Assembly: GCF_000764305.2 (NCBI RefSeq)
Contig: NW_025931267.1
Coordinates: 1-64,000, forward strand
Length of the DNA: 64,000 bases
Origin: Hyalella azteca
Lineage: Eukaryota; Arthropoda; Malacostraca; Amphipoda; Hyalellidae
Reading direction: 5' to 3'
Program-made: the position numbers and the translations under genes
Part shown: one piece after another, positions 21-63,873 of the stretch
Layout of the letters: each line of letters starts with the position of its first letter
Numbering within the stretch: the stretch's first letter is position 1
Notes under the pieces: generated by a model
Told to the model about the DNA's origin: nothing
Databases searched by the model: none
Seen by the model: the letters and a program-made list of their open reading frames with translations, nothing else

Positions 21-3000
21 ATGGGCGCTCGGAGCTCATCGACGAGGCCGACTTGCCCGCGGAGTTCGAGTGGGCGTCGTGGACTGGCGTGCTCGGACAG
101 CCTGTGAGTCCGTCCGTCCTAAACGCCTCGCCTTAATTTACAAGCTACAACGCAACACAAATGTTGCTCGAGGCTGTAAACTGGGAAACTTTTTGATATC
201 TTTTTGCAATATGTTCTGTGATATCTTGGATAAAAGAGTTCAGGGCGTAGGAGAGTTTTCCCTTATCACTGGTAGTGATAGTGTTACTTCTATGTGGTGT
301 ATGTGATTGTTATATAAGTTCTGCGTCTAGCTATTCAAAAACTATAAGATAACAGTTCAAACTCGACTTTGTAATTGCTCCATTTAAATATAATTGCCGA
401 TTGTTATGGGTATTACAAGTAAAATATAATCGTAGGTTAGAATGTAATCCCGTATTTTAGGTGGCCGGATTATGGCACAAGTACGCCGATCTAAGCGACA
501 TCAACGCCACGGACGCTAATTTCTATTACGGAGTCATCGTAGCTGGCGACGACTTTGGTCTGGTCAAGCTCTTCCGCTTCCCGTGTCCCAAGAGAGGTAA
601 GCAAGACTCTCTTGTGCTTGGTCAGATAAGGTTATGTTTACACAGTTCAAGTGCCGAGTGCAACGATCTTGTTATAGTTGAAGTGATTAGATGGCTTTGC
701 ATTAGCGTTGCGATAACCGAAACCTCTCAGAGAGCGCTCGACACCCACAGCTCATGGCCCCAGTGTTGCTCACGTCACTTTAGAGTGCTCGACTCTCACA
801 GCTCATGGCCCCAGTGTTGCTCGCCTCACTTTAGAGCGCTCGACTCCCGCAGCTCATGGCCCCAGTGTTGCTCGCCTCACTTTAGAGCGCTAGCAGTGAG
901 CCTGAGTCCCGTGACACACTTGTATGTTGCAGTGAGCCTGAGTCCCGTGACACACTTGTATGTTGCAGTGAGCCTGAGTCCCGTGACGCACGACAGCGAC
1001 AGCGGAGAGGAGCTCCTGGACACGGAGGACGAGTACGAGGGCCTGCCTGAGCTCACGCTCGACCTGGAGGCTGAAATCGTCGACCCTGGAATGAAATTAC
1101 CTCCGAGGTGAGCGACTAGTGACTACTGGAGACTGCTGATGACTGCTGGTGACTAATGGTGACTGCTGATGTCTAATGGTGACTACTGGTGTCTAATGGT
1201 GACTACTGGTGACCTCGCAGCCGCAGTGCCATCTGCAGTTCGATTACATTAATAAGTCAGTGCCGCCCCCGCAGACGCATCGCCCCCTACAGTTCGAGGA
1301 GCGACCGCCGGCGGCTTCCGGCGGAGGTGCCTCCGACGAGCGCCTTCAGAAGCCGCGTGAACGCCTCGGACCCCGACACCGCCGTACCTGACACGCCCCC
1401 TCATCACTACCTTAAAATGAAACACGTCTTCGGGTAAGAAAACTCATTTCACTGCTTATATTGAGTTCATATTGAGCTAATTTTATATTCAATATGACGT
1501 CAACACAGTACGCCGCTGCTGTGTGCAGTGCTTCACCATGACGGCCCTCGCTGGATAAGTTGAATGGGAAGTCTGTCTTGGAGAGATATTATTTAATGGT
1601 CAAGCATCGGCAATTTCTTTTACCCGTCTGTGAAATTCAGGCTTCGTTTGTAAAACGTGCCTCAAGGGGCGCATGTAGATACGTTATCTCCTTTTGAAGT
1701 TCTCCTTTCACTCCTTTTAAGATCTCCTTTAAATAGACAGAAATGGCTCTGACAAACTTACGATTACCCAACTCGTCTTGCCCATCGCCTCCCAAGTTGT
1801 GTACCGTCCAGTCAATTACAGTAGAGAATTTCAAGGCCATGCAGTTGCAGCAGAGCACGCAATACTAAACAAACTAAAATCTTTTACGCTATTAAAAAAA
1901 TGGCTATTTCTTTAAAATAACAAACTAAAATCTTTTACGCTATTTTGAATCGTATGCTCTCTCCAAGAGCATGCAAATATATATTTTTTTAATTTGACAT
2001 GAGCTTTTCCGCGAGCTTACGGAGGTAGAACCTTCACCAAACGGAAAGAAAGAAATTACACGAACTTACTTACGCACGACCACCGTTCAAACGTGGCAGA
2101 ATCTGCCTTTCCTGACATTCTTTCCGCATTACTCGTAATTCCTGTTTAAGCAACGGGTTGATTTTGGGGGGCACTGAGGTACTGAGGTCATGGCACTCAG
2201 GTACCGAGCCCACGGGTGCCGCGACAACGCCCACTGGCTGGGGGACGGCAGCCTCGTGTATCACGTGGCAGGCGTATGTGTGGTCCTCGAGCCTCAGGAG
2301 AACAAGCAGCGTCACTACCTTCACCACACCGACGACATCCTCTGCCTGGTGGTGCATCCTGACGGCATCACTGTCGCCTCTGGTCAGGTGATTCATCCTC
2401 ACATGTCATTCAATCCTGATTTTGTGTTTGAAATTTGTCACGTCACCTTTTGAGATATTTTGAATAGAACCCGACGAAATTTTACGATGAGCCATTCATT
2501 TCGCCGTACGATCTGCTCGGACAGATGGGCAAGGCGGCGACGGTGCACGTGTGGAGCAGCAGCACCCTGAGGATCTTATCATTCCTGGAGGGGGGGCACG
2601 TGAGGGGCGTCTCGTGCCTCGCATTCTCCCGCGACGGCGACCGCCTCGCGTCCATCGGCCTCGACGACTCCAACTCCATGGTCATCTGGGACTGGCAGAA
2701 GGGCGTCAAGCTCGCCAGCGCCAGGTGCTGTAAGCCTTCAGTCATAGTCAGGCGTCACGAATCTAATGACCGCTTCTAATCAATTGGGTCATCGTAGTAG
2801 TATTAGTTTAGCGGAGTCAGCGTTCATTAGGCCGTTAGACTTGTCGCCGATTCTTAACATCGCGGAATATTCACAGATTATTGCGGTCTCGAACTCGCAC
2901 TTCACTGATCCAATTTTGCTGTGCTCAATCGCCCGTTAACTTCGCCGATTAATTTGATCAGAACAGTCAGGGGAAGCCGAAGTCGAACCCATAACTTTCT

Positions 3001-6000
3001 GCTCCAACCCTGGTACTCAGAACTGTAGCCACTGGGACACCTAATGTTACAATTCGCATGAACTGGTGCCACAAGAGTGAAGTTCACCAGGCAATTTCAG
3101 GTGCAAGTGTTCGAATCCTTCTGTTGGGTTATTCTGGTTGCGTATTCCCGGTCTTTGCTGATGCCGTATTCTGGATCATTCCATGATTGGTTTTTTATCT
3201 GCTCTAGTAAGCTTACTTGATCATAAATCCCGACAGTGATCGTAAGTTCTTCTAGCTCTACGACGATCATACATTCGCTTCCAACGTCAAAAGGCGGCGA
3301 GTTTAATTCTTGTCGTTGATGGCAATGAACTGATGGCAGAGACATAGCAGCTGTCAACTTCTGAGCGTCGGGCCTCTAATAGCGTCCGTTTCAGTAACCC
3401 GATCGTTTGCTTCATGATCTGTAATGACTATTGACCTAATAAATGTTTTAGCGGATATTTAGAAATAGCTCGCCAGCCAAGCTGATTGCTGGCTTAAATG
3501 TTTTGCGTTGAAATTAGTGCGAGTGATTTATAAATTGTCATTACGCTGACAAGTTTAACGTTGTAATTAGTATCGGCGATGTCTAAATGACCATTAAGTT
3601 GATAACTTGGACGGTATAATTAGTATCAGGGATATCTAAATGATCATCAAGCTGATAAATGTGCATCAGGGCGCACTCTGACAAAGTGTTCGGCGTGCGG
3701 TTCAGCGCCAGCAACTCCCGCAAGCTGCTGACGTTTGGCGTGCGGCACTCGAAGACATGGACGCAAGTGGGCGGCGGCCTCACGTGGCGGCAGGTCAAAC
3801 TCGGCATCAAACTGAGACAAGTGAGCCATCAGGACATAATTATGCGCCAGTCTTGTTGGGACTTGCATGCTGGGACGCCACGCATGCAATGGAAATTTTG
3901 TAGGGACAGAGGCAGTCGGCTTCAAGACGGCTGCTCCCGTTGAATTAATTAACATGTAGGAATTATTACCATGGTAAATTATCCATGATTGTAACATGAG
4001 CGCAATGATGGAGGTATCGTAGCGGTCTTTAGTTAGGAACCCACGCCAAAGTAGTGGACGTACTTAAGTTTCGGAAGATTATTAGCACGTACGTGCTGCC
4101 GCCTGTTCTTTTTATATTCTTCAAAATAAGATCTAAGGCGAGAAATAATAAGTTTCCCACTCGCTTCAATTGTACGTCAACCATGAGTAAAGTGATTTCA
4201 TGGATCCGCAAATTGTTGACGTGGAACCTTAATTTACAACACTCGCTCGAACAACGATGACTACAGAAATGTCTGAAAATGATAGCATTTAGCGTATGTG
4301 TACGGTGTAACATATTAGTGTGTGGGTCCAGGCGTATGTGTACTTTGTGATATTTTAGTGTGTGGTCCCAGGCGTATGTATACGGTGTAACATTTTGGTG
4401 TGTGGGTCCAGGCGTTTGTGTACGAGGGAACATTCAAGTGGTCTAGGCGTATGTGCAGGAGATAAAATTCACGTGTGGTCTCAGGCGTATGTATAGTAGG
4501 TAATATTCAATTGTGGGGCCCAGGAAACGTGCCTGGCTTGTGGTGTGGTGTCACCAGAGTGCACCTCAGACGGGCAGGAGCTGTGGTTGCTGGGGCTCTC
4601 GTCCGGACACATCATCGCTGTTAAGAACGGCGAGGTCGACAAAAAAGTCAAGGCGCACAAGAAAGCTCTGCACACCATCATCGTGCACGGCGAGGTGACC
4701 AGTACTTTTAATTATACAATATGCTCACCTTCAGGAAATACCTTAATTTAAGAAGTGCTTTTGATCATGTTCGAAACTTGAGTCGTATTGATACGTAAAG
4801 GAGTGAGAGCGAGTACAGCAAGAGATGCTTGATTGTAATAAATGCGGCTAGAATGTTACGTCTTCAGTTATTACAGTTTGTAATAACTGAAGTATGACGC
4901 AGTTTGTCTGGAGCGGAGGTGACGATGGGTTCGTCTGCCAGTACGATCTGGAACTTCACCACTGCATCAAAGTCTTCCCAATCAACGATCAATTTTTGGA
5001 CCCTGACGTGGCCATAACTTTGACTTCGTCGCAACCGAGCGTGCGAAGTTTGTCGTTCCTGGCTGGCGGAGACCTGCCGCTGCTGGTGGGCACGCAGCAA
5101 GGCGAGCTCCTGCTCATGCCTGTAGGAGGCGGCCATGCAAACACCTCCAAGTTCAAGATAATTGTTCAGGTGAATAACTTGCCTTTGGGATCTTTTGAGT
5201 CCATTTTCGCTCGCGAAACACAGCCAGACAACATTTTTTTCCTGATTTGGACTTGCAGTTACTATTTGGGCAATACTGACATCAATGGCTTGGCCATCTA
5301 ACCATCATGTACTTCAAGATCTGGGGCCATACTTTCAAAACTCGCTAAATGAACGTAAGTATTTACGCTCTATTTTCTTGTCTATGATTGGTGGATTTTG
5401 CTTGAAAGGCCGTCAATGATTGGCTGATGAACTTACGATCTCTTAACTTTTTTTGAAAGTATGGGCCCTGGCCGTTTCACGTTTGCATCTAACTTTGTAC
5501 TCTTCGCTTGATGAAAGCTTCCTTCTGACTGAATTAGCAGTCCTTTCGTTTAATTTCTAATACTATTAATTGTATATTTGCTGTATAATAATGAATGCAT
5601 GGTCAATCCAAGCTTTGTTCAAATAATATACGTTTAAAAATTACTCTTTGAAGACAACACTTCTAAAGAATCCAGTGTCTCCAATGTTACAGATGTAAAA
5701 TGAATTTCTCATTTTATTTTCGAATATTAAAAAAATTAATTTCTCAATTTTTTTAATGTATAAATTTTTTTTCAAAAGTATTTATTCTGTCAATTGATTC
5801 ATGCATTGCTTCCGACTTCACACAAGTGTGCAAATTTTCAGAGCAATTGGACAGGTAAAAGTGTGTCAAATATCAGTTATAAGATTTGGAGCTGACAAAA
5901 TTATTTTTTCAGTTTTTTTTAATATTGAAAAAATTTAATTTTAAAATCATTAATTTTATCATTTGATTCATGCATTATCTCCAACTTTACGCAAGTGTGC

Positions 6001-9000
6001 AAAATTTCAGATCGATAGGATAAGTAGAAGTGAGTTAAATTTTGATTATAAGATTTGTAGCAGACAGACAGACAAACAAGAAGTGAAGTTAAAGAGAAGT
6101 GTTGTAAAAACTGGCATTGAACGCGATCGTGTCCATTTGCAGATGTGAATCAATCAACATAAGCTTAATTAATTGACGTATTTTCTGGTGAAAATTGAAT
6201 CTTTCTTATGTTTTTACGTCGACTTAAGGGGACCGACTCCCCTAAAATTTTCAATTTTGGCGTTTTCCGGTTTTTGAGCTCATCTTAAAGCTTAGTTTTT
6301 GACGCATCCAACGGTACCAAAGTCATCCCTCTACGTCAAAAAATGATTTCGTAACAGCCCCCCGAAGGGAGGGAGTTTTTAGAGCCCTTAACTGAAGCCT
6401 ATGGGATTAATTAGAAGGCTAGACACACTAAAAAGGAACGTCTGACGTAAAGCGGCCAATCATGGCATTATCCGGTGCTCATACTCATCTTAAAGCTTAC
6501 TTTCTGACGATTCCATTGGTGGTAGAATCATCTTTCTACCTCCATTTTTACGTTCACCACGCCCCATGGAACGGGGGGCGGTGGGGGGCGGCCTTAACAA
6601 ATTCCTAAGGCATTAATTACGGGGCGTGTCTTGATATACTGCCAGATGCAGCCAGGTCTTTCAGTGCCCATCATGACAGCGAGGTGAAAGGTGTGCAGCC
6701 ACTCGCTCTATGAGGGAAAAATGAGAAAAAATGAGAAAATTGGGATAAAACGCGCATAAAAAAAAACTAAGAGGAAAATGAGAAAAATGATCATCATATC
6801 TATAAGTATGGTCCTTACGAACCGAATGATATGTGTCTCGATGTTGTAGGATGATATTTGTAGGAGGAGATAGATTTTCTAAAGTACCCCTTTTTAGCCG
6901 TTTCCTATAAATTTCACGTTTTCTATCAATTTTTTCGAAAAATTCATAATAGCAAAATGTCATTTTTTTACATTTTACGTATTTATGTGAAGTTTCATGA
7001 TGATCGGATAAAAACTGTAGAAGTTTTTCCGGAGGGTAGTCGGTCCCCTTAATCACATCTTTTCAATTGAAAAAATTGACATTTGAGGCAAACCTGTTGT
7101 TATTAATCCAGAAAATGATCGCCAATTTCTGATACAAAAATATGCCGTTATGTGTTTCGTATAGCTACCGCAAATCGGTTAAATTTTCCACGGCCAGGAG
7201 CCAATTATTTTGAAAGCTCTCACCAAAACACAACATCTGTCATCAATTAGTTCCTACTGAACAAGTTCACAACACTTATAAAAGAAATGAAGTTTGCTCG
7301 CGCCTTAACAACGTACAAACAGTTTGCCGTGTATATTTGTGAATGTCGCAGTGAAAAAAGTTCAGTGTCGATTCATCGAGCATATAGATTATTTGTTAAT
7401 AAGATGAACTTTGAAGAATCCAAAAACTGTTTGTTTTGCAATGATGCAGCAACGAACTTTGATGGCCTAGGATCCGCACTTGCCATTGTATACATCAACG
7501 CACGTTCATGTATCATTTCTAATAATTATATTATCTAAGGGGACGATAGAGCTACTATTGAGTACCGCACCGGGTCTTCTGTGATGGAAAGATGCAGCCT
7601 CAATCATGTTTGGTTGTGGCAGTTGGCTCGGCTTCTACTTAGAAATCCTGATAAAGCTTAGACGCAGCACGCGTTAAAAGTTTCAGTTCGATAAATTTAT
7701 TCGGGTTCTTGAAGTAGCTCCTCGAAAGTAGCGCTTTAAGTGGCTGCTCTTGTACCTAGAGGAGCTCACGTCATCGGTTACGGTTCAATCATTGTTGATC
7801 CTCTTCTTCAGAGTTTGACAATTGGACGGTTATAAATAGCTGCGGTGGATACATTAGCAGCATACCATCGTGGTGAAATTTTTATAGCGATAGCTACTCG
7901 TGGTACTCTGTCACCTTCTTTAAACTATGACGTCACCTGAGTAAACGATGTTATGAGTTCGTATCTCCTTGAAACCGTTGAAACCTATGCAATAGGTTTT
8001 GCATTCCTTATGCAATTTGTAGGTCCAATTTTGGCAAAAATCGTATTAATGAAGTTTTTGTACTGATGATGGAGCTGGACTCCGATAAGTTTTCACTGCA
8101 GACAAAATGAATTTTTCGGCGTTTTCTTTGATTTAAATGCTTAGTTCATATGACAAGTTGCTACGAATCCGTCATTTCCTAATCTCAAGTAGAATTGACT
8201 TTGCATATAAATTTAAAAACAACCCACACTTTATCTAACTATGACAATTTGGAATTTTGAAATTTATGCAGAATTTGTCACAAATGTTCATAAAACATCG
8301 AACGAGTATAAATGCATTGACCTAACCTTCATTACTGCATTTCTTCTAACAATGATTAATGCTCTGAGTCCGACTGAGGAAAGTCTAATTCTCAGCTCGG
8401 ATCTTTTTTTGTAGAAGGCCGTAGACTGATTTTCGGATAGATAAAACATAGAATAAATGTTCATCTATATGCATTACCTAAATAATGATCGAAAAGAGGG
8501 CTAAATAGTTTCCACGTTGATTAAAATGATTGGATGTGCTATACTGATTTTTAAAATGTGTTCTAAATTCATGTAAAGAAAAGAGCACTTTTTGCCCTCA
8601 TGTGATGGTGCCCTCATTTTGATGGTGACTTTGAATCTTAATTCCGCACCATGGAAAGGATGGGCAACTCAGACGTCGTCCACCGCATGTAGATTGGGTC
8701 TCTGTAAACAAAATTAGCGGAGCCTCACATACACGACAGACATACGACATTCACCAGATGCAAACGATCAGTCACATGCAGGCTATATCAATCATACAGG
8801 TCATTTTTTCGTCACAAGAAAACGATCACTTATTCGCCACATGCAACCGATCGCTTATTCGCCACATGCACAAGATTAATTATTCGCCATACACATACGA
8901 TCAATTATACGCCACGTGCGAGTGATCACTTATTTGCCACGTGCACAGGATCAGTTATTCGCCATATATATACAATCGACCATTCGCCTCCTGAAAACGA

Positions 9001-12000
9001 TCAATTATTCGTCAACTATTCGCCAATCAATCAACTATTCGCCACATACAAACGTGCACGTATAACGATCATTTATCCGTCACTCAATAAACCGCAAAAA
9101 TGCACCGGGAAAAACTGGTAACCCAGTCTGCTTTTCTTACAAGTTTAAGTTTGATTACACGGGTCTGAAAAAAATCTGAAAATTGTTTTTATTTTTGAAA
9201 TGGTGACTGTTTTTTGCACTGATTTCATTTTGGGTCGCGATAACTTCAATTAATGCCTTGATAGGGCATTAATTTGAATTTAACTCTCATTTTAAACTTA
9301 ATTAAATGTCTATAGCACCTCACTTCCCACCACGATATCGATGAATTTTTGTATAATTTTTAACGACGTCAATATTCTAAGCTCTCCGTTTCCATCTTAT
9401 GCGATTTATAAAGCGTGGAAGTGCACATCCAGCACTAGTATTAGTGGGTATCAAAATTTCTTAGAAACAAGAAAATAGCTAAATATTTTTAATCAAAAAG
9501 TGTTAGACAATAATTTACTATCGACGTGTCAAGTGTTCATGGAATAAAATCACTCAGGAAAACAGCGAATAACATCACCATTGCCTGCCTATTATTTGTT
9601 AGCGTGAAGTTTTTACGGGAAAATTATAGCAGAAGTATTTCCGTTCTTTTGATTTTGCCGCTGTTAAAATGCATTTTTTCGAACAACATTGTCAATCATT
9701 ATTCATTAAAATTTAGTCCCAGCAATCATGAGACGTCGACTCAACGTCATTAAAGACATTACGACGTAATCAACCAGCAATCGATGTTACAGCGTTAGTG
9801 GCGCGGTGGAGCGGATCTATCTAACTGGAGCGCTCCTCTTGTACAGACCAAGGAAGAATTTTGTAAAGAAGAAATATATGTAATATATGTATAATATATA
9901 ATATATATATATATATATATAATACATTGGGGGTTTCAAATTAATGAATTTAGCAAGGCAACTTTGATACTGGCGACATTTTACTTGCTATTTTTGGTTA
10001 GAATAATAAACTGATAAAATATGAGCCATTAAAATATACGTTTAGAAATTAATTTTTACAGACAACACTTCTAAAAAATCCCGTGTCTCCAATGTACAAC
10101 AGGTAAAATGAATTTCTAATTTTAATTTTGAATATAAAAAAATAATTTTTTAATTGTTTAATACATAAAAGAAATTAAATTTTCAAAATTATTTATTCTG
10201 TCAATTGATTCATGCATTGTCTCCGATTTTACGCAAGTCTGCAAAATTTCAGATGGATTGGACAGCTAGAAGTGTGTTATATATTGATTATAAGATTTGT
10301 AGCAGACAAAATTATTTTTCCAGTTTTCTTTATATAAAAAATAAAATTATTTTAAAATTATTAATTTTGTCATTTGATTCATGCATTATCTCCAACTTTA
10401 CGCAAGTGTGCAAAATTTCAGATCGATAGGATAAGTAGAAGTGTGTTAAATTTCGATTATTAGATTTGTAGCAGACAGACAAACAAGAAGTGAAGCTAAA
10501 GAGAAGTGTTGTAATAATTGATCAGATACCTGAAATAAGTAAAGCTATTACACACAAACTAATTAACGGAACATACTGATAGCTCAACCTATAAAAAAAT
10601 ACCTGTACCTATAACATATACATCACATCTTTTTTCACTGTATTGACGCTCTGCACGACTTGTACAAAACTATAGCATCTTTTATTCACTGTATTGACGC
10701 TCTGCACGACTTGTACAAAACTATAACATCTTTTATTCACTGTACTGACGCTCTGCACGACTTGTACAAAACTATAGCGTCTTTTATTCACTATATTGAC
10801 GCTCTGCACGACTTGTACATAAACTATAACATATTTTACTCGCTACGTTTACTCCTTGCACGACTTCCAACACGCTATGCACAAGTCAAGACAATGTCAA
10901 GATAATATTAAGGTAAAATAAATGCGCAGGGCCACTCTAAAGGGGAGGTGTGGGGCCTCGCCATGCACCCCACCCTGAACGTGGCGGTGACGGTGAGCGA
11001 CGATCGCTCCCTCAGGATCTGGGACCTGGACGCCTCCCTCGCTTTAGGTTCCTGCGCCCTCAGGAAGCCTGCGCGCGCCGTGCACTTCCACCCCTCGGCG
11101 GCCGTCCTCGCCGTCGGCTTCATCGATGGTGGGCCTTGAGGGGCGTTGTCCAACGCTGGTGCCTGCGGCGTTGCGTATTACTGTGCCTATAATGCTTATC
11201 GAGCCATGAATATAAGGGAAAGTCTTAGTTCATGTGTTGTGCTCTGAGCTCATAATACTTACAGTGTCGTAAAGAAGATTCGTAGCTCGAGTATTTTCTA
11301 AATTTATCCATACCGAGTCTCCTAATGTACTGTGAATTTAACAATATGTATCGCCGATTATATAATCCGACCTAAGATAAACGAGTAGTTTTGACCGAAT
11401 GAATGACGAGCTTAAATAGCATCTTGGTCTCGAAATTATACTTCATTTAGTCATGCACGCTTAACATGCTCTATTTTAAAAGTAGAATAATAATCTAATG
11501 CTCGTTGATCAACAAATTAGTGAAAGGATTAATATATATAAGAATAATAAAATGGTTGATTGTCAGGCAGCGTGGCGGTCCTGACATACCCCGCCACCAC
11601 ACGCCTAGGCGGCACCCACCACCGCCGGGAGGCCATCTCCGACCTAAAGTTCTCCCCCGACGGGCGGCTGCTGGCGGTGGCGTCCCATGAGGGCGTCGTG
11701 GACTTGTACGTCGTAGACACCGACGGGAGCGCCATGACCAGCGAGGGTGGTGGCCTGCGCAGAGTGGGGGTGTGTCGGGGGGCGGCGTCCTTCGTAACGC
11801 ACCTCACCTGGCACTGAGGTTCAACGCTGCTAAATATGAGGCTCTATTATATATGTATTCTATTACCCCTATAATATATGTTTTATTACCCCTATAATAT
11901 ATGTTATACTACCCATTTAATATAGTATATGCTCCATAATACTACATATTGTTGGCAGGCGATGGCGAGGATCTGTTCTATGAAGCTCCTGGAGGTCGGC

Positions 12001-15000
12001 AGCAGCTCATACCAAACGCTGCGGCCAAGGAGCTGGCTTGGCAGATGCCCCTGACGTGCCCCTTGGATGTTTCCCTCGAGGGCATCTGGGACAAGGGCAT
12101 GGACCTCACAGACGTCAACGCCGTCGCCACTGCTCACAAGTTGCCGCTCGTTGCCACGGCTACAGACAACTGCGGTCTGCTCAGACTCTTCGCGTATCCC
12201 TGCTTTGTAAGCATTGCTTCCTAATTCAATTTTAGACATTTTACGATCTCGTATTCCTGAGCTCATTCAGCTTGTGGGCAAATGAATCATTCATCATCAA
12301 CTTTACCCTATGTCTCACTACAATAATCAAGGATAACATGTAGTAGTCGCCAAGGTTTCGTCTTTTGCAGAGATGGTTCGTAGAAAGCACGTTAATTCAA
12401 GATTCTAGTTAGCCCAAGTAACCTCAATGTAAACTAAAAGCATTGGGGCTTTGATGTCAGTGTAAGCTAAAAGCGCTTGTGACTTTGATGCCAGGGCTCC
12501 TTGAAAAAGTACCGCCACTATGCGGGGCACTGCAGCCACGTCACCAATGTGGGTTGGTCGCCGTCAGACGAGTTCCTCGTCAGCACGGGGGGCGCCGACA
12601 CCGCCGTCATCGTCTGGAGGGTCGTCGGTCACGCCGCTGAAGACGAGGACGACTTCGACGCGCACCTCCTGAAGGCTCCTCACTCGTCCCCTCAGCAATT
12701 CGCAGCCCCGCCTACCGTGCCTCTCGACCTTCGCACTGAAGGTATAAGGGATGCAGAGGTCCTTGTAACTACCCTCCTCAGTTACAATAATACCTACGTG
12801 CCTTGTATGAATACCTTCTTCCCTTAATAATATCTTCGGACTGAAGGTATTAAGAGCTGCAGAGGTCCTTGTAACTACCCTCCGCAGTTACAATAATACC
12901 TACGTGCCTTGTATGAATACCTTCTTCCCTTAATAATACCTTCGGACTGAAGGTATTAAGGGCTGCAGAGGTCCTTGTAACACCTTGTAATACCTTCGTA
13001 ACGAAGTTGTCAACGGCTGGATAAGCTCATTATTCCTATAGTCCACGGTTCTATTTCTTTGATGCATGAACCTATAATACTTACCAAAATATTCACCGAC
13101 ACTGTATTATTAGCTTACTGGAGATATTAATGTCTTTCGAGAATATGCATGCTCGAATATATTTTTTCTGTAATTCGCTTATATCGCGATCAATATCTTT
13201 GCCACGACCTGCAGACTCGGAATTTGCAATCGAAGGTTACATTTATAAATTTTGTCTAAATTCCATCCGTGGTCTGGTGGCCTCAAATTGAGTCACTGGT
13301 AACTAACCTACTTTCAATAACTTACGTTTATCGTTTTTGAAAGCCTATATGTAAAATTAGTCGATCACTCATGTCGATTAGTCGATATTACTTATGTCCA
13401 CAATGAAGTTTATGCGTTTTACAGAGCAATATATTTTCTAAGCAGATTCTTCTTGTATAATTTTATTATTTAAGCCTACTTAGCACTCGCTTCGCTCTCT
13501 TGCGAAAATAATCATTTCGACGGTAAACGATGGTGTTGATGGCGAAACTGAGCAAGCATCCGAGTCAAACTTTCGTGAGTCAATGCTTGACAGAAACGTG
13601 ATAGCATTATTGGTACTTGCCAAATGAGGTATTAAAACATTGTCCTTCATTCTTGTGAGTTGATGAGAGTTTCATGTTTTCGTGTTGCAGCAATATCACT
13701 GAAGGACCTCGACGTTCAGGGGCTGGATGAAACTATGGTGTTAACTCCCGGCATACTCAAGCAACACACCTCTATGTTCAACAAGAACTATGAGGCGACT
13801 TCTGGAACAAAGCCTAATAAAAACTTGCCCTCGCTACGCCCGGGTGATGCCGGGGCCATCAAACTCGTCTCTAACGCTGCTCTGCTCAATGATGACACCA
13901 TACTCTTCCTGGACAATAATAAGATTCTCAAGATGGACATCTCGAATGGTTAGAATAACTCTTGAGGATTCTGTTGCTGCAACGCCAATTCGAGCAACTG
14001 TAGAATAATTTTCACTATTAACTTCGAAAAACATTTGAGGTTTTTTCTAGTACCCAAAAACTAGGAAAAGAAACAAATTATTGAGACAGTTCAGATTTGT
14101 CCACATCAATAAATGCTAGAGGAAAGAAAACGATGGGTTATTTAAGATTTTTTTCAAAACATATAGAACGCATATGCTTGAATTAATGTCACTAGATTGC
14201 TTGAATCGCATTAAATTCCTAACGTATATACTTGTGAAGCAAATTATCGCGTGGTCAAAGTAAGTTTTTGAATCATATATATCATTAAGGCACTGAAAAC
14301 TTGTCCTGTGCTGTGGCAGGACCCATGCCCCCAAAAGTTCTGCACGCTCAGCACTCGACTGTGGTGACTGCGTTGGCGCGCTCGTACGGGGAACCAATGA
14401 TGGTCGCGACGGCGTGTCAGGAAGGCAGCATCGTGGACGATCCCAATGGCTTGCTGGAAGATGAAGGGGCGATGGTGCACGTATGGCGCCCATCAGACGG
14501 CTCCCTGGTCACGGTGCTGCAAGGGGACTCCAAGGATCAGACTATCACATCTTTGTCATTCTCGCCCAAAGGAAGGCAGCTGGCTTTTCTTGCCGATGCT
14601 GCCACTATTTACCTCTTCAATTGGGTTAAAGGTTCGCTCGCACTCTGGCCAGTTAGCACAAATTCAACACTACATCAAAGATTGAAGATCGCCATCGTAA
14701 TCCTAATAGACATCTTTGCATTTATCATAATGTGGCGATTTTATGCGACTTTCAACAACAATTTTCTCGGAAAATTTCACTATATGACTATTCCTTTAGA
14801 ATTAACTTACATTTGATATTCATGAAAGCAAATGTTAGGTAGGGTTACATCATAGCTAGCCAGACTATATTCACAGGCATAGAGTTGGCTCAGAAGCAGC
14901 AACGAGGCGAGTCAGTTCTGTCGCCGTTAAGGTAGAGTTATATCATAGCTAACCAGACTACCTTCACAGGCATACAAAAGCAGCAACGAGGCGAGTCAGT

Positions 15001-16462: not shown

Positions 16463-16554
16463 AAATAATGATGCATTATGTAAGATATTAAATAATTGTA
16501 AATAGAGTAAGGGTATCTTTTATTATTATAATGAATTGCACAGTTAAAGACTGA

Positions 16555-16560
16555 AATAAA
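16555..16560 (+). terminator. Poly(A) signal of the EML gene
   Basis: AATAAA lies 93 bases after the TAG stop at 16460-16462, in an AT-rich tail. It is the first canonical hexamer downstream and fits a short 3' UTR. Confidence 0.6.
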
Positions 16561-16828
16561 AAACAATTCTTGTTCTCTTGCCAAATAGATGCAAAGCAAG
16601 ATCCCTTTATGTCGAACAGAATAGCAGCATGAGATTTTGAGCTTTAATTGCTCTAAGGCGGCATGCAAGTAGCTGCTTCTCCTGATTGCAAGCTTGATTT
16701 CTTGTAGCTCATGGAGTTGCTATTTTGGGATAAGATAAGTAAGGCATTGAGATGTTCACCATTTTTGAAACATTATCATAGTATTTAAATTCATTGTTTA
16801 ATTATACAGGTCGCAATTGATTTGCTTT

Positions 16829-31200: not shown

Positions 31201-32546
31201 CAATTCATTTCCTACGTGAGAATAAATTTTTAGTTTTGCATTCGAGCATTAACTTTTTCATTTGAAGTAAACTTCATTTGAACACTTCCTGGTGCGCCAT
31301 CATGTAAGTTGCATCATGCCTGCCTAAAATGACTGATGTGCAATTGTAAATGTGCGCGCAGATCGGATGGACGAGTTATTTTTATCCGTGCCGGAATCGA
31401 ACGACAGTCGAACTACTGCTCCTAAAAATTTATCCAAGTACTTGACAAATCGAGATAAGAAAATTGTTGACAATGTCACGATTCTACAAACCCACTGCAG
31501 GAGTGAAAAGGTAAGCGTTTCTGAAGTAAGTTGTCTCCATGAAATTATCAACTTAAGCGTGAAACATGAGATGTCGAATAAATTATCATAGATTTGAAGT
31601 TGGGTACGAGATCAAATGCAACATTCGAGAGAACTAGAGGATGGTAGACATGTGTTCTAGTAATTGGTCCTAATGGCATATGAGGATGAATTTGCATACC
31701 GATTAATTTATTGCTGACGGTTAATAAAATGCCTTATTTTTACAGCAAAGATTTTTCACTTTGGACGAGATGTTAGCCTTCAGAAAGGACGATGAGTACA
31801 ACAAGTTCACCCACAGGGATAAGACTAAGACCCGCAAGAGGTGAGACATGAAGATAATTGACGAGTTGCGTTCATAGCAACACGGGCTGTCGTTGTTGTT
31901 ATGGATTCGCGGCATTATTTTTGGTTCGAAAATTTTTGTACATTTCAGCCGGTATTCCGCAAAGTTATGCAATAGTATTAATTATGAAATAGTTGAGTTC
32001 GATAAGGAAAACTTAACACCTCTTAGTGCCACGAGAAACGTTGCAAAAGAAATTTTTTTGCATATGGGCACTCATCACCTCGCGTCATTTCTGTAACCAT
32101 TTTAATAGTTATTCCTGAATTTAAAATTCTGCCTTATTTGAGCTAATCTATTTTTCCCCAACAGAGAGCTCCTGAAGAAACGGGAAGAGAGAAAGAATCG
32201 CGGTAAAGCCCAGAAGTCCATCGATGTTGCCGATGATGAAGATGAGGAAGACCGAAGTGATGATGGTGATGAATTGGATCCGCTGACTCAACAAATTATT
32301 GATGAGCTTCCTGATCCTGATAAAATCCGGAGACGAGACTCTGACAGTGAGCCAAGTGATGATGAAGTGGAGGAACGACCGTGCAAGCGACTCAAGGCTG
32401 ACGACTCGGAGTCTGACTCAGATAAGGGAAGTTCATGTAGTGGAAGTTTTGAAGAAACTGATGAAGAAGAGCATCCGTCTAATCTAAGAAAAATGTCATT
32501 GAACCAGCAAGAGCAGATGGCGCTACGATTACTTGCTGGGAAATAA
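19290..32546 (+). CDS. DDX10: DDX10/Dbp4-type DEAD-box ATP-dependent RNA helicase
   Basis: Exons: 19290-19376, 27871-28071, 28238-28834, 28995-29157, 29722-29908, 30240-30416, 30696-30916, 31362-31510, 31746-31840, 32165-32546; phases agree at every junction and give 752 codons. Helicase motifs are complete: Q region, motif I AKTGSGKT (about residues 83-90), Ia PTRELALQ (119-126), TPGR, II DEAD (192-195), III SAT (223-225), [21 protein letters not shown] (371-378). A Dbp4-specific domain follows ([11 protein letters not shown]), then basic and acidic low-complexity regions and a tail resembling DDX10 ([17 protein letters not shown]). Dbp4/DDX10 acts in the nucleolus in early 18S rRNA processing and release of U14 snoRNA. 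The first exon ([20 protein letters not shown]) is assigned by phase and basic composition and is the least certain; the family N-terminus is usually somewhat longer. Intron 1 is 8.5 kb of transposon relics and contains an adapter artefact. Confidence 0.92.
20245..20530 (+). promoter_or_regulatory. CCAAT-box cluster with GC boxes in DDX10 intron 1
   Basis: Five CCAAT motifs, four in the context ccaatcacag, lie at 20245, 20268, 20349, 20390 and 20461, partly in a 40-80 base repeat with atcatgatcc. Two ccgccc boxes lie at 20489 and 20521 in a 31-base direct duplication. CCAAT plus GC boxes is a promoter-like combination, but tandem duplication alone could have made the cluster. No downstream exon is visible. 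Confidence 0.35.
20417..20454. other. Perfect 16 bp hairpin
   Basis: gggtcatactttctgg is followed after six bases by its exact reverse complement. It lies inside the CCAAT cluster of DDX10 intron 1. It may be a miniature inverted-repeat remnant. Confidence 0.65.
20769..20806. other. Nextera mate-pair junction adapter (assembly artefact)
   Basis: The 19-base transposase mosaic end CTGTCTCTTATACACATCT is followed at once by its exact reverse complement, giving the 38-base circularisation adapter of Nextera mate-pair libraries. It is not biological sequence. The bases on either side probably come from different genomic places. Confidence 0.97.
20807..20939. mobile_element. Right end of a third hAT-like element, cut by the adapter
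   Basis: Directly after the adapter, catatactgttattgttag and the following 130 bases match the right end of the hAT-like element at about 23500-23678, finishing ccaaccctg. Only this end is present, which supports a chimeric join at the adapter. Confidence 0.75.
21968..22710 (-). mobile_element. Tc1/mariner-like element nested in hAT copy A
   Basis: Ends are CAGGGTGGGGCAGA and its inverted form CTGCTCCACCCTG, flanked by TA on both sides (21966-21967, 22711-22712). The inverted repeats extend about 80 bases. It encloses a broken transposase on the minus strand. Confidence 0.85.
22055..22511 (-). pseudogene. Broken DDE transposase (Tc1/mariner-IS630 type)
   Basis: Minus-strand fragments contain [10 protein letters not shown] (second catalytic block), then [17 protein letters not shown] (third block), then a tail with [18 protein letters not shown] frameshift separates the first two blocks, and the N-terminal DNA-binding part and first catalytic aspartate are missing. 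It is not functional. Confidence 0.8.
26081..26230. mobile_element. 150 bp palindromic MITE, copy 2
   Basis: Same family and length as 5321-5470 but inverted: cagggcctatactttcaaaa to ttttgaaagtatggccccag. Confidence 0.75.
26365..26830. repeat. Large inverted repeat with arms of about 190 bp
   Basis: The left arm (about 26365-26559) and right arm (about 26643-26830) are inverted copies; for example ggtgcattgtagtagaactc on the left matches the reverse of gagttctactacaatgcacc on the right. The spacer is about 85 bases. Arms differ by scattered substitutions. Confidence 0.8.
27239..27870. other. Last part of DDX10 intron 1
   Basis: AT-rich sequence with no recognised repeat or frame, ending in a polypyrimidine tract (ttttttttag) at the exon 2 acceptor. 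Confidence 0.5.
29138..29330 (+). repeat. 61 bp triplication of the DDX10 exon 4 donor
   Basis: Units start at 29138, 29199 and 29260, with a fourth partial at 29321. Each begins cgtggcctctcgaggcctg followed by ggtgagttcatt. The first is the real exon end, encoding helicase motif V (VASRGL). The others lie inside the intron and repeat both codons and donor. The unit is not a multiple of three, so use of a decoy donor would shift the frame. Confidence 0.9.
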
Positions 32547-34553: not shown

Positions 34554-37500
34554 TCAGTTGTTGAGAAGAGGCTTCACGTCCCAAATTTTGATGACGTTGT
34601 CCGTACCTGCAATAGAAAATAGATTCATGCAAGTCCATTCATTCAATTAATAATCATTTTCAGAGACTATGGAGCAACATATGAAAGATAAATATGAATC
34701 ATAGGTTAACCATTAAAATTAATCGTGTTGTCAATGGATTATATCATCGGAAAATTGGATGGATGAGATACCATGAAACATTAGAGCTCATTTTCGATAA
34801 CATGTTTACAGTTGGAAATCTAATCAATGTCAACGCGGACTCTAACACAAAAATATCTACATATGATATCAATATAACATAAAGTACATGAACCTTCACG
34901 ATACAGGTAGGTATTTAGGCCCTTCAAGCCAACAATAAGTCAATAACTAACGTCACGAACAATAGGACGGGTTGACTCACACGAGCAGCCAAAGCTCAAT
35001 GTTACAATCTGCACAATTCAGCACAAGTAAAACATGAAAATGTCCAGCGGTATTAGAAGAAGTAGATGTTAAAACAAGCAAAATGTATGAGAAATTTGAC
35101 GTACCGACAGTTACCAGAGAGCCGCACTCGAGGTCAACGGCCATGGCGGTCACAGGATGCTTGGCTTCATGGAACACAGCCAGACTTTCCTTACTGGAAT
35201 AAACAAATGAAATATTGATAGGGAGATACTGAGTAACTTGCTGTTGGTGAGTTACTGCAATAAACAAATGAAATATTGGTAGAGAGATACTGAGTAACTT
35301 GCTGTTGGTGAGTTACTGGAATAAACAAATGAAATATTGGTAGAGAGATAATGAGTAACTTGCTGTTGCTGAGTTACTGGAATAGAGAAATGGGCTGAAA
35401 TGTTCGTTAACTGTTACTGAGTAGTTTGCTGTAAGTGCCATGTCCATCAAGCGATTTGAAGATAGAGTTTATATGTGAATTAATTTAACGGGATCAAATT
35501 ATTAATATGAGGCATCGAAACTCATACGTAGAAAAGGACATGAAATAAATAGAGAAGGATGAAATTTAACCAATAAATAACTAGCAACTGTGCCACTTAT
35601 GCTACCATCTCATGTCAACATTGTGCAGCTAAAGCTACAAAGGAAAATAGTGTCCCTATTTCTGTGAGCCACAACACATGACTTGCACTCAGTATTTTCA
35701 AGACGCCTGCCACAACTAATCTGTACAAGCCAAGTGTGTTAATTGTATTGCGAAAATTAAATATTTCCAGTCCGCTTGATAAATACGTGCAAATGATAAA
35801 AAGGTCGACATGAGGAAAATATTACAAAAATAAAAATTGAACAGGACAAAATCTCGCCACCTTTACCTCGCCACATTCCTGGGGGCAGCCAGAGAAGAAC
35901 GGTGATTATTTATTGCAACAAGCGGTTTATTGTAGTTATAAACATAGACATGACATGAGATGAAGATAAACGACATGACATGAGATGAGGATAAACATAG
36001 ACATGAAATCAGATGAGGAAGCAAATTATGGCTGATGATAGAAGCTGAACACAACAAACATGATCGCTGCACAGGCGCGCGAGCAGAAAACATAACTAAC
36101 TGCATGCAAACACTGCCAAACAAACTGCATGCAAACACTGCCAAACAAACTGCATGCAAACACTGCCAAACAAACTGCATGCAAACACTGCCAAACAAAC
36201 TGCAGGCAAACACTGCCAAACAAACTGCAGGCAAACACTGCCAAACAAACTGCAGGCAAACACTGCCACACAAACTGCAGGCAAACACTGTCAAACAAAC
36301 TACAGGCAAATTTCACAAAGAGTGCAGTTTGTACCTTCACGTGTAAACCATAACATCACATCTATAAAGGCTTCAATTAAAACATCAATTGATGAAGCCT
36401 AGTAGTTCAAATATTGTATATGTCAATAAGACTGCGATGTCAAACTTGGAAATAAGGGTTTTGGCTAAATAATCAAAATCGTTCATAATATACAACATTA
36501 ATAAATCCATTCAATAAACATCTCTGGATGTGATGCCAATGCATGATGTTAATAAACACGATTAAAGAATTAGAAGGCAAATGTGCAGCACTTCAGAGTG
36601 AAAACCTTGCACTCAAACGGAAAAAGCAATTTGAATGAGAACAGATTAGCATAGAAATGAACTCACTCCTGGTCAGAGATTGTCTCGTAGCAGCGCTCAC
36701 AAACTCTCACGTTGAACTCGAAGCCCATGGCCGGTATGTTGGTGCGGCGGCTGGAGCAGCTGTCGCATACGGCCTTGCCGCACTTCCTGTACAAGAGGAA
36801 TAGTGAGTCCTGTAGCAGTGAGAGAGTCCTATAGCAGTGAGAGAGTCCTATAGCAATGAGAGAGTCCTATAGCAATGAGAGAGTCCTATAGCAGTGAGAG
36901 TCCTATAGCAGTGAGAGTGCTATAGCAGTGAGAGTCCTATAGCAGTGAGAGAGTCCTATAGCAGTGAGAGAGTCCTATAGCAGTGAGAGAGTCCTGTAGC
37001 AGTGAGAGAGTCCTGTACCAGTGAGAGAGTCCTGTAGCAGTGAGAGAGTCCTGTAGCAGTGAGAGCATCACTTGCATGAAGCCTCGGGTCTCGTGTACTG
37101 ATCACCTGCGGTGTGGCTCTGTTCTTTAATTGGCATTAAATGAACTTGATAATTTAAAGAAATAGTATTGTGATATGAAGGACTCCTATCAAGTTCCTTC
37201 GTAGGGACACAGCGTGGGAGCGAAGGTTGGAATAGGGAAGTGTGTCAAGCACCGAAGCAACCAGTCAAAACATACTATTAAGTGACAACAAAAGATATCA
37301 GAGATACTATATTCCCATTGCGCAAGATATCAGAGATACTATATTCCCATTGCGCAAGATATCAGAGATACTATATTCCCATTGCGCAAGATATCAGAGA
37401 TACTATATTCCCATTGCGCAAGATATCAGAGATACTATATTCCCATTGCGCAAGATATCAGAGATACTATATTCCCATTGCGCAAGATATCAGAGATACT

Positions 37501-40500
37501 ATATTCCCATTGCGCAAGATATCAGAGATACTATATTCCCATTGCGCAAGATATCAGAGATACTATATTCCCATTGCGCAAGATATCAGAGATACNACTG
37601 ACCTGCAGTGATGTTGCCTGAGCCCACTAACTGACCTGCAGTGATGTTGCCTGAGCCCCAGCTGCTTCTGGTTGATCATTGCCTTGACGTTCCAGAAGAA
37701 GGGACGGCCGCAGTACTGGCAGTTGTCGCTCTCACTCCACTCTGGGGTCTGACGTAAAACAAATTCAATACTACAAGACAGCAACAAAAATGACTTGAGG
37801 ACAACACGATATAGATTTTGTTCATCAGCATTTTCGTTTTTGGTAATGTAGACAATATAAACCAAAATGAATTTACCGTAATTGAAGGACGTGTAATTGA
37901 AATGCTTAGTTCATCAGCACATATATAACAGATGAGGTAACTAAGAACCTCTTTGCTTTTTAACCTCTTATAAATATAACCAACCAGAGTATTCGACACC
38001 TACGACATAACTACAAGCCTATGCTGTCAAAAACATTACAAGAGTCTGAGACAAGCATGAGTTGGGTTTTAATATTTAAAACCAGCTCAGCGATATATAC
38101 TGAACTGTACAGGAACATGTTAATTTATGCATATATATAGCCAGGATTGTAATCACACTTTCATCCTCAATTTATACAAGAGACTTCAGTGTTATGACAA
38201 TTTTACACAGGCACCTATCACAACATTGCCCCGCATTTCATCATACTGCCGCTCCCCATTCTAGAACTAACGAGTCACGCGCATATCTGAAGAGGAGCTT
38301 ACGACAGGACACGAGGTCGCCATGTCTCACCACACAAGCACCTCGCCTTAATTTACATTAGCTGTAATTGCGTTATTAAAAAGGAGCCCATGACACCTTA
38401 ATTCACGTTAAAGTTGTAATTGAGGCCTCCACCTGGCGAGATGCGCGGCGCAATTATAGTGATCGTCTTCGATCCAGAAGTTATTTTGGCTCCAGAGTCG
38501 ACGTGCTGGCGACCCTCGAGCGCTGTGGCGTTCGCTGGATAAACTTATGAGAAGAAGCCATTAACCAGATGCTGCGGGTGACGTAAGCATGGAGGAATTC
38601 CATGCGATTTTTGAAAACAATATTTCTGCTGCGCTAGCGTCGTCAGCAGATGCTCCGCCGGTAACATTTGCGCCGTGCCCATCGACTGCGTGCTCCAAGA
38701 ATTCACTCGCGTCGCAGCTGACTACCGTAAGTAATCACTGCAGTGCGCGCGCTGCCCAACAAGCAGTGTGCCAGCGATCCGCTGTCGACGTCGTTAATTA
38801 AGGAGAACGTCCTAAGCCCAGCACCTTTCTGGTCGAACTTTTCAACCGCTGCATCTCTGAAGGTGTTGTTCCAGAGAACTTAAAATCAGCTTACATTACG
38901 CCTATTAAAAAACAGACCTTGACGCTTCTTATCCAAAATCATATTGACCCATCTCCAACCTGTCGATTTTTGAAACTCCTGGAACGCGTTGTGGCCCGAC
39001 AGCTGAACAACCATATTCAGTAGTCCGGTTTGGTGCCTCACCTTCAGTCTGCATACCGTCTAAACCACTCGACGGTAACAGCCGCGCTGAAGGAGCTTTC
39101 AGACATCGCGGCATTGGCTTTACTCCACCTGTCGGCCGCATTTGACACGGTCGACCACGCCACTTTAATGCGTCGACTTGAGTAACAATTGAGGTATAAT
39201 TCGGCATGCGCGGCACAGTGATGCAGCCGCTAGAAACCTAACTCAGCAATAGATTCCAATGCATTTGACGTGGGAATTCTTCATCTACGCCACCGTTGGT
39301 CATTGCGGCATTACACAGGGATCAGTCCTCGGCCCGATTCCCTTGCTGTTATATACTGTTGACGTATTGCACATAATTGATTCACATAGTTTGAATCTGC
39401 ATATGTTAGCCGATGACATCCAAATTTATGGCTACTTAGCACCAGCTGACGCTGCAGTGTCGCAGGACCGGATGTCTGCATGGACGTCGTCTCAGACTGA
39501 ATGCGCTCCAACAGGCTCCAGCTCAATGCATAAAAACGATTTTATTCAGTTTGCGACTGCTTAGCGCCGGCATCAGCTTCCAGCCAACCCTGTTCGCGTG
39601 GGCAACGAGTTCGTCATGCCTGAGAGTTCGTTTCGCAACCTGGACATTCTTCTGGACTCAGAACTTGCGACATGAAATCATGTACTATTGGTCGCCTTCT
39701 ACGATAAACAATCACATTTTAGCGCTGTTAGTCGAATACGTAGCGTCAGCCGCCGTCTGTCGAGGCCCTCGTGGTGGCGCTCGTTCTGACCAGATTGGAC
39801 TAAGGTAATGCCACAATCTATGGACTTCCGACCATGGCACTTAATAAACTGCAAACCGTAATGAACGCTGCTGCACAATTCGTGTGCAATAAGCAAAAAT
39901 TCGATCACGTGACGCCGATATTGCGCGATCTTCACTGACTGCGCACGCAGTTCAAGGTCGCTGTTCTGTAGTTTCTATGCCTTCACAATCTGGCGCCTCC
40001 TTATTTCACGGAATGTCTGCAGCGCGTGTTGGATCTGCCTTCCAGAAGACGACTGTGCTCGTCATCAACAGCGGACCTCGTCGTTCCATCTACACGTCAA
40101 TCTACCGTCGGCGACAGAGCGTTTCTGATCGCTGCCGCCAGAACCTGGAACAGTCTGCAGGCTTCCGTAAGTAACATCGGCTCCTTTGTTGCAAGTGTTT
40201 CGTTGACGCCTAAAGACAGAACTATTTCGTAGAGCCTATGAATCAAGTGCTTAATCATTTTTATCACTTCTCAGCCTTTCTCGTGTAGGTATTTATTTAG
40301 TTAGTTACATCAGACGCCACGATAACTGCCTTGTAGAATAATATTAATAGTACTTGCATTATTAACGATGAGCTATGAAATCTTAATTTACATTAAAGTT
40401 ATAATAGCATTATTATGAAAGAGCTTACGACAAGACGCGAGCACGCCATGTCCCACCACACGAGCATACCGTCCTCGCCCCCAGACACGAGCACCCTGCG

Positions 40501-43500
40501 CTCGCTGCAGTGCTTCAGGCCCCGAACTTTGCCTCTGCAATTCACAGTAAAAACTATTATACAACTTGCTTTTATTTATTGAAAATAATTGATTGCCAAC
40601 TCTTTGGTTTTATCCGAAATGAAAAGTTTGAATGGAAGTGAATGCGCAAAGAGATAAAGTTTGCTTTTGGTAATTATAATAAGAAGTACACGAACGAGTG
40701 TTAATAACTCATAGACATTCTGTGTTTTGATAGAAAATCATCTTTACTTTTTACATAAATTCAATACCTATATATTCCCAAGAAATGATTTAAACAACAA
40801 ACATTCAAACCCTTTGAGTTTAAAATCTAGAAATAGAATATAACACAGAGATAATTTACAAACCTAAGCTCACAAAACAAATTAATTATATCATTAGTTT
40901 GCTTATCGTTTTAAAAGGCTAAGAGGTGCATTTACTTATCATTATGTTTGATATAAAATTCTTTGAACTAAACATCACGAAACTGACGTGTGTCCCTGCA
41001 GCTCATAGGCAGCGCCCTTGCCGCCCCCCACGTCCCAGACCATGACGCTGTGGTCGTGTGAGCCGCTGAACAGCTGCTGCGCCGCCCCATCCCATGCCAG
41101 GCCGCTCACACAGCTCGTGTGGCCCTACACACAGCAATACAGGTGTCTTGTGAGGCCCTACACACAGCAATACAGGTGTCTTGTGTGGCCCTACACACAG
41201 CAATACAGGTGTCTTGTGTGGCCCTACACACAGCAATACAGGTGTCTTGTGTGGCCCTACACACAGCAATACAGGTGTCTTGTGTGGCCCTACACACAGC
41301 AATACAGGTGTCTTGTGTGGCCCTACACACAGCAATACAGGTGTCTTGTGTGGCCCTACACACAGCAATACAGGTGTCTTGTGTGGCCCTACACACAGCA
41401 ATACAGGTGTCTTGTGTGGCCCTACACACAGCAATACAGGTGTCTTGTGTGGCCCTACACACAGCAATACAGGTGTCTTGTGTGGCCCTACACACAGCAA
41501 TACAGGTGTCTTGTGTGGCCCTACACACAGCAATACAGGTGTCTTGTGTGGCCCTACACACAGCAATACAGGTGTCTTGTGTGGCCCTACACACAGCAAT
41601 ACAGGTGTCTTGTGTGGCCCTACACACAGCAATACAGGTGTCTTGTGTGGCCCTACACACAGCAATACAGGTGTCTTGTGTGGCCCTACACACAGCAATA
41701 CAGGTGTCTTGTGTGGCCCTACACACAGCAATACAGGTGTCTTGTGTGGCCCTACACACAGCAATACAGGTGTCTTGTGTGGCCCTACACACAGCAATAC
41801 AGGTGTCTTGTGTGGCCCTACACACAGCAATACAGGTGTCTTGTGTGGCCCTACACACAGCAATACAGGTGTCTTGTGTGGCCCTACACACAGCAATACA
41901 GGTGTCTTGTGTGGCCCTACACACAGCAATACAGGTGTCTTGTGTGGCCCTACACACAGCAATACAGGTGTCTTGTGTGGCCCTACACACAGCAATACAG
42001 GTGTCTTGTGTGGCCCTACACACAGCAATACAGGTGTCTTGTGTGGCCCTACACACAGCAATACAGGTGTCTTGTGTGGCCCTACACACAGCAATACAGG
42101 TGTCTTGTGTGGCCCTACACACAGCAATACAGGTGTCTTGTGTGGCCCTACACACAGCAATACAGGTGTCTTGTGTGGCCCTACACACAGCAATACAGGT
42201 GTNATCTCACTCTGAGTGTGGTGACAAGTGAACAGTCTTTCACACCATCTCACTCTGAGTGTGGTGACAAGTGTACAGCTGCCAGCATCAAGCTTGAGCA
42301 TGGTGATGACGCCAGTGTAGTCACCCACGAAGACATGACTTGTAGGAGCATCAAACTCCATAGACGAGCACCAACCTCCACACTCGTACCCACCAAGCCT
42401 GCAACAACACAAACCATTGCTAAATAAATGCATAAGATTAAATAAAAATACAAGGTATCATAAATCAAACAGAGCAACTAAGTATGTTATGTTGGAAGGT
42501 TATTTGGTCATAATTAACACCGAAGCAGAAATAACCTGTGGCCTGTTGTGGTCGAATGGAATGAGAAAAATTTGTCTCTGGATATTGAGAGTATCCAAGA
42601 ATGGCTGCCAGAAAAAAGCACGCCCGTCACACGTCCCTGGTGGCTCAGGTAATCTCGTAGATGATTCAAGCTATTCTCATCTGGGGCTACCTCAAACTCC
42701 TGTGACAAAAAAAATCAGATTGGGATCAGATACAACATTAGCACTTGATTATCACCAGAAATATTCTCAAGAGGAAAAGATACACAATATGGAAGGTAGA
42801 ATATCCTCTTCATATGCTATTCTCAATCTGAGGGAATGCATAAATATATATCACAAAAGAGGCAGAGTTTCAAGAGTTAGTTAACCAGGTTTTAGGCTAC
42901 CTGCTCCTAAATACAACTAATACAATACTACATTTAAGGGAACATGTCTCATAATCAATGCAGACAAGATCCAGCACTGACCATGACGGTTCCATTGTGA
43001 AGACCAATGATAAGTGTCCGAGAAGATGCAGTGTAGTGGAGACTGGTGGGTGGTGATGATAAGTAGTGGCAAACACTTGGCCAGAACTGACCATTTGCTC
43101 GTTGCTGCCATATGCGTACAGACCTGTCACATAATTCTCTCTATGAATATAAATAAAAGTGACTTTACATGAATAAACATCAGAAATGGAAAGCTTTAAA
43201 TATTAGGGATGACAGTCATTTGCAAAACCATTAGCAAATTTTTAACCCATTATTAATGAATAGGGAATAAACTTGAGGAAAAATAGGATGACTTTAGATT
43301 CAGCATCACAGTATTTCAAAGGAAAGTTTAAGCTCTCATATGAAAAGAGAACAATGCTACTGGTAATGACACATAAGTTACAATTCTGAAACTACTGCAC
43401 TTGACCCATGATTGTCCAAAAAACCACATAATACCGGTCAGAACTTCAATGTGTGAGATACCCCACAGTAGCTACAAGGCTAGAAAGTTGTGGTTCAGTT

Positions 43501-63856: not shown

Positions 63857-63873
63857 ATGTGTATAAGAGACAG
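63857..63873. other. Partial Nextera mosaic-end adapter (assembly artefact)
   Basis: ATGTGTATAAGAGACAG is the last 17 bases of the 19-base Nextera mosaic end. It marks a likely false join between the transposon end and the following unrelated 127 bases. Confidence 0.9.

Follow-up and report, generated by a model that had tools for sequence, protein, structure and literature searches.

Tandem minisatellite arrays over exon–intron junctions in a genomic window of the amphipod Hyalella azteca

Tandem duplication across splice junctions has precedents. In human genes, some internal tandem repeats with minisatellite units of about 30 bp lie at exon–intron boundaries, where the extra copies can be removed by splicing or give rise to introns (De Grassi and Ciccarelli 2009, PMC2812944). 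In the potato RdRp gene a tandem duplication across an intron–exon boundary made exonic sequence intronic (Ma et al. 2016, PMC4974935), and in the Rogers model, as described in the same paper, introns are gained through duplication of an exon segment that contains AGGT. Some intron positions in Drosophila are tied to tandem duplication or sliding (Lehmann et al., PMC2891723), and the title of one C. elegans paper joins minisatellites with alternative splicing (PMC4039745). The present study concerns a stretch of 64,000 nucleotides from the amphipod Hyalella azteca (RefSeq assembly GCF_000764305.2, contig NW_025931267.1, positions 1 to 64,000 of the forward strand; “the window” below), in which tandem arrays lie over exon–intron junctions of three genes resembling EML, DDX10 and WDFY2. 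With moderate confidence, these arrays are regarded as ordinary minisatellite births that are indifferent to splice sites, denser near exons and tolerated when they straddle a junction.

The arrays resemble the human repeats in having minisatellite units at exon–intron boundaries, but the human repeats vary between recent paralogues and are supported by RNA, whereas those in the window are known from the sequence of one assembly. With the potato gene they share a duplication that crosses the junction; there a new intron was gained, while here existing introns lengthen. As in the Rogers model, tandem duplication feeds exon sequence into introns, but donor and acceptor are not matched except in WDFY2 intron 1. 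In another amphipod, Trinorchestia longiramus, tandem repeats form the largest portion, 6.18% of the genome, which was assembled from Nextera mate-pair libraries with SSPACE (PMC7062882), and the window is like it in repeat load and in its traces of assembly. Platorchestia hallaensis and Parhyale, too, were sequenced with such mate-pair libraries. Splice-junction minisatellites in amphipods were the subject of no title among the matches listed from the open-licence PMC literature. Human tandem-array introns were reportedly described by Zhuo et al. in 2007. The kind of event is therefore already known, from the human and potato precedents, and it is the density of arrays in one window that would be new, if it holds genome-wide.

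Arrays over splice junctions and the sites in use

Exon models were built from translations of the window with GT-AG boundaries. The EML-like gene (a multi-module EMAP; 21–16462, forward strand) has 18 placed exons, its 5′ end lies beyond the left edge of the window and its spliced translation matches the Pfam EML propellers and HELP. The DDX10-like gene (27871–32546, forward strand) has nine placed exons, the first exon being unplaced; its product matches Pfam DEAD, Helicase_C and SPB4-CTE and aligns to solved DDX10 and HAS1/DDX18 chains in the PDB. The WDFY2-like gene (34554–46383, reverse strand) has ten exons, with Pfam WD40 and FYVE matches. Together the three genes contain 34 placed introns and 68 internal junctions.

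When the window was compared with itself without gaps (score at least 14, shift 10–300), 38 arrays were obtained, 25 of them genic. An array was counted as spanning if it holds at least 3 bases on either side of a splice junction, and eight of the 25 do so, at EML acceptors 3 and 16 and donor 13, DDX10 donor 3, and WDFY2 donors 4 and 7 and acceptors 5 and 9. The overlap with an exon–intron boundary that characterises boundary internal tandem repeats is found at eight of 70 boundaries, these being the 68 internal junctions together with the acceptors listed first for EML and DDX10, with a doubtful EML exon 11 donor among them. The head-to-tail units of the arrays listed below are 19–106 bp long, the size of minisatellites, and the eight spanning arrays reach 3, 8, 15, 21, 23, 23, 25 and 43 bases into the exon.

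In the EML-like gene (forward strand) a 36-bp unit is present 2.8 times at 893–991, over the exon 3 acceptor (968/969); the unit includes 23 exon bases and both full units are identical. The exon 13 donor (12741/12742) is covered by 2.4 copies of a 105/106-bp unit at 12727–12981, with 15 exon bases, and the exon 16 acceptor (15053/15054) by an 84-bp array with a diverged third copy at 14837–15096, with 43 exon bases. In the DDX10-like gene (forward strand) 3.2 copies of a 61-bp unit at 29137–29330 lie over the exon 3 donor (29157/29158) and include 21 exon bases. The four spanning arrays of the WDFY2-like gene, all on the reverse strand, are a 61-bp unit present 3.3 times at 35191–35392, over the exon 9 acceptor (3 exon bases); about two copies of a 33-bp unit at 37597–37658, over the exon 7 donor (23 exon bases) and cut by an N; 32.9 copies of a 33-bp unit at 41117–42202, over the exon 5 acceptor (8 exon bases) and ending at a single N (42203); and about 1.7 copies of a 43-bp unit at 42204–42278, over the exon 4 donor (25 exon bases) and cut by the N. 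The GC content of the spanning arrays is 0.34–0.57 against 0.39 for introns, as expected from the exon bases that they include.

A sequence-only reading of the window had proposed that about ten junctions were tandemly duplicated, each unit carrying the splice site and a few exon bases. This was borne out at eight of its 11 sites, where the splice site is duplicated with 3–43 exon bases, and at nine once a decayed copy is included. The decayed copy, proposed as a donor case at 38297–38345, corresponds to the end of WDFY2 exon 6 and its donor (38295–38340, reverse strand; 46 columns with a score of 62 in a gapped search, against 26 for the best of 300 shuffles), but it is located 2.1 kb from that junction. 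A degenerate reverse-transcriptase-like stretch (38.5–40.3 kb, WDFY2 intron 6) lies between exon 6 and this copy; it matched PF00078 with an E value of 0.0046, below the Pfam cut-off, in one of four frames tried. The acceptor case proposed at 4292–4523 stands in part: a 35–40-bp array (4292–4516, forward strand) ends on the EML exon 8 acceptor (4523/4524) and repeats its AG, but at most one exon base is in the unit and the array was not counted as spanning. The acceptor case proposed at 36790–37070 was not confirmed: the array there (19 bp, 14 copies, 36805–37065, reverse strand) ends 18 bp inside the intron before the WDFY2 exon 8 acceptor, and its units have only a loosely similar CAG/GA. 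Two sites lie outside these cases: 2.1 copies of a 33-bp unit (12424–12494, forward strand), absent from the earlier list, end on the EML exon 13 acceptor and share no exon base with it, and a perfect 32-bp array of 9.5 copies (37292–37595, reverse strand) is intronic and runs up to the single N at 37596. The earlier statement that the units have no common sequence is supported. Among 13 units, three of the 78 pairs scored above every one of their own 60 shuffles, with about 1.3 expected. A single transposon as the source of the units was considered and is not supported by this comparison.

In the spliced translations the exon-proximal copy of the splice site continues the reading frame in all eight spanning cases, and homology with Pfam profiles and PDB chains backs this copy in four of them. 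The HAS1 alignment crosses the DDX10 donor 3 junction (residue 320) with no gap there. WDFY2 donor 4 and acceptor 5 share the exon 4/5 junction (residue 205), which is contained in a WD40 match that aligns 38 residues with 38 profile positions, and the exon 7/8 junction at WDFY2 donor 7 (residue 323) falls within the FYVE match.

The further copies of the splice sites, referred to here as decoys, were scored together with the used sites against a matrix from the window's own 34 introns and are about equal to them. In four arrays (DDX10 donor 3, WDFY2 donors 4 and 7 and WDFY2 acceptor 5, where only three decoys were scored) all scored decoys equal the used site, and the other four have at least one decoy that is no more than 0.4 bits lower. 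For EML acceptor 3 the used site scores 9.4 and the decoys 9.4 and 2.2; for EML acceptor 16 the values are 5.6 against 5.6 and 6.8, for EML donor 13 they are 1.8 against 1.4 and 1.4, and for WDFY2 acceptor 9 they are 6.6 against 9.4, 6.6 and 4.9. Use of the nearest decoy would give a frameshift or a stop in six of the eight arrays; that of EML acceptor 16, for example, would add 84 bases in frame, with a stop. The remaining two would give open in-frame inserts, of 12 residues at EML exon 3 (acceptor 3) and 11 residues at WDFY2 exon 7 (donor 7). The WDFY2 insert would repeat GLRQHHCR, which we take to be part of the FYVE motif. The decoys are presumed to be mostly unused.

Placement of the arrays relative to junctions and exons

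Local duplications, with the unit limited to 120 bp, occupy 15.0% of intron positions in the window, as against 1.7% in exons and 3.3% between genes. With 15% of intron positions covered, many matches at junctions are to be expected, and junction coverage is not above the intron level: eight of 70 boundaries are covered, where 10.5 would be expected, and a count of eight is reached in 63% of rotations. When units of up to 300 bp are admitted, 12.2 are expected and 78% of rotations reach eight, again no excess. Gapped probes found copies at eight of the 68 junctions against 11.7–14.1 expected at score thresholds of 26–40, and at seven against 10.2 at a threshold of 50, in a test that skips the 30 bp flanking the probe on each side and misses WDFY2 donor 7. 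Coverage is a harsh yardstick for junction arrays, because these can reach only slightly into the exon.

The tests that count arrays disagree with the coverage tests. If units or whole arrays are placed at random over all introns, or units within their own intron, 1.5–3.6 arrays are expected to span a junction against the eight of 25 observed (p 2.8e-5 to 0.015). If whole arrays are placed in their own intron, 2.9, 4.1 and 5.0 are expected at an allowed overhang of 25, 43 and 60, respectively (p 0.001, 0.02 and 0.07). Had seven, six or five spanned (K = 1000 lists), p would be 0.049, 0.13 and 0.29 under the genic null and 0.0084, 0.032 and 0.10 under the own-intron null. With adjoining arrays pooled, seven of 20 span against 3.2–4.2 expected (p 0.006–0.05), and with the four gap-touching arrays removed five of 21 span against 3.2 expected (p 0.17). 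The window was picked because the pattern had been seen, and the p values carry no correction for that choice. The earlier claim that placement at junctions exceeds chance is favoured by the per-array excess (8/25 against 1.5–5.0) but not by the coverage tests, and is not established.

The distances from array edges to the nearest junction show a broader pattern. Eight of the 25 genic arrays cross a junction, by 3–43 bp, and six end 7–40 bp inside the intron; one lies at 41–80 bp, one at 81–120 bp and nine farther away. Altogether 14 of the 25 span a junction or lie within 50 bp of one, against 7.4–8.5 expected (p 3e-4 to 0.003). Inside this exon-near zone nothing sets the junction apart, and it is nearness to exons that stands out. 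The units have no constant register relative to the splice site, the overhang ranging from 3 to 43 bases. Given the near-symmetric edges and this variable overhang, the arrays were probably not seeded by splice sites, and the proposal that duplication starts at splice sites finds no support here, since junction coverage is also not above that of introns. The crowding may reflect a mutational preference for exon neighbourhoods; alternatively, the deep intron may consist of younger, transposon-derived DNA.

Unlike arrays adjoin each other at 731–991, 37292–37658, 41117–42278 and 47206–47339, as if one array favoured the birth of the next.

Explanations of the junction arrays

The explanation preferred here takes together the observed arrays, their exon content, the frame kept by the exon-proximal copy and the similar scores of the decoys. 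Seed duplications in a genome rich in tandem repeats would be produced by slippage or break repair, irrespective of splice sites but with a bias towards exon neighbourhoods, and would subsequently expand. Selection would clear copies inside exons, whereas a duplication that straddles a junction would be tolerated, and presumably neutral, because the first donor or the last acceptor still bounds an intact exon. Further copies, exon fragments included, would become intron, giving intron growth together with spare splice sites of about equal strength. The process is not solely recent, as the decayed WDFY2 copy indicates. That duplications are tolerated as long as usable splice sites remain had been one of two alternatives offered by the sequence-only reading, and it agrees with the frame kept in 8/8 cases, although at EML acceptor 3 and WDFY2 donor 7 the nearest decoy would keep the frame too.

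Several points weigh against this explanation. The per-array excess is 1.6- to 5.4-fold, with several p values below 0.01, and is not predicted by pure indifference to junctions. The explanation also leaves the crowding of arrays near exons without a cause. For the three EML cases and WDFY2 acceptor 9 the exon ends are deduced from the reading frame, and the decoys may not be silent. Three of the eight spanning arrays, moreover, touch a gap.

The alternative that splice junctions are duplication hot spots and seed the arrays, for example through RNA–DNA hybrids or polymerase paused at exon ends, could account for that excess (eight of 25 against 1.5–3.6, p 3e-5 to 0.015) and for a copy being found at nine of 68 junctions when the decayed one is added. 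It is nevertheless considered unlikely. Coverage shows no excess, and the per-array excess shrinks to 5/21 against 3.2 (p 0.17) without the gap-touching arrays, in a window selected after the pattern was noticed. The overhangs have no common register, and six arrays end just short of the junction.

That the arrays were created or inflated by short-read assembly and gap filling is considered quite unlikely, even though the window carries traces of its assembly. Its only Ns, the single-N gaps at 37596 and 42203, have arrays on both flanks, and the two arrays to the left of the gaps are 99–100% identical; the arrays probably broke the assembly at these points. A perfect 38-base palindrome is present at 20769–20806, and a 15-base piece of it recurs at 63859–63873, near the right end. 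We take the palindrome to be the Nextera mate-pair junction adaptor, persisting in the window, and assembly joins there are suspect on that assumption. Five of the eight spanning arrays, however, are free of gaps, and in four of these five the copies differ by substitutions or small indels. The decayed copy is also hard to account for as a product of assembly.

It is improbable that the alternative splice sites made by the repeats are used, to give variable peptides or to regulate expression: the decoy scores do resemble those of real sites, two inserts would be in frame and free of stops, and such use is published for human boundary repeats (PMC2812944), but the nearest decoy would bring a frameshift or a stop in six of the eight arrays and the WDFY2 exon 7 insert would duplicate a stretch taken to be part of the FYVE motif.

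Intron growth and wider meaning

Introns with a spanning array consist of array to 25–100% of their length, and in the WDFY2 intron at 41125–42253 array accounts for 1128 of 1129 bp. The seven introns concerned are 372–1473 bp long, the median of the others being 331 bp, a difference that arises partly because the arrays themselves add length. The suggestion that arrays are a source of intron growth is thus upheld locally, in that one WDFY2 intron, with the reservation that copy number is unreliable: that of the 41117–42202 array is not trustworthy, because its 33 copies are 99% identical and it ends at a single N.

It is conceivable, although doubtful, that exon ends are true hot spots of minisatellite birth in this lineage and that short introns grow to a large extent by way of boundary-straddling arrays. 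On that account WDFY2 intron 4 would be a small ancestral intron that is now made up wholly of donor-derived and acceptor-derived units.

Introns of the Rogers type were also sought and rejected, the run of matching bases between donor and acceptor having a mean of 2.38 in the 34 introns and 2.24 in mismatched pairs. The exception is WDFY2 intron 1 (43124–46219), whose donor and acceptor have the eight bases TGACAG/GT in common; none of 1122 mismatched pairs reaches eight. The match hints that this intron may have originated by tandem duplication.

One intron model is in doubt. The EML exon 11/12 join (11567–11958) is broken, with a stop present and positions 134–143 of the PF23414 profile missing. 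Since about half of the intron at this join is a 23-bp array, sequence may have been lost there or a microexon may have gone unplaced.

If duplications that straddle junctions are a regular, tolerated class of mutation, they would explain part of the lengthening of introns. Natural genes would then also contain near-identical competing splice sites, and with them a test of how the spliceosome chooses among equal sites. The crowding of arrays close to exons is the aspect that deserves attention genome-wide.

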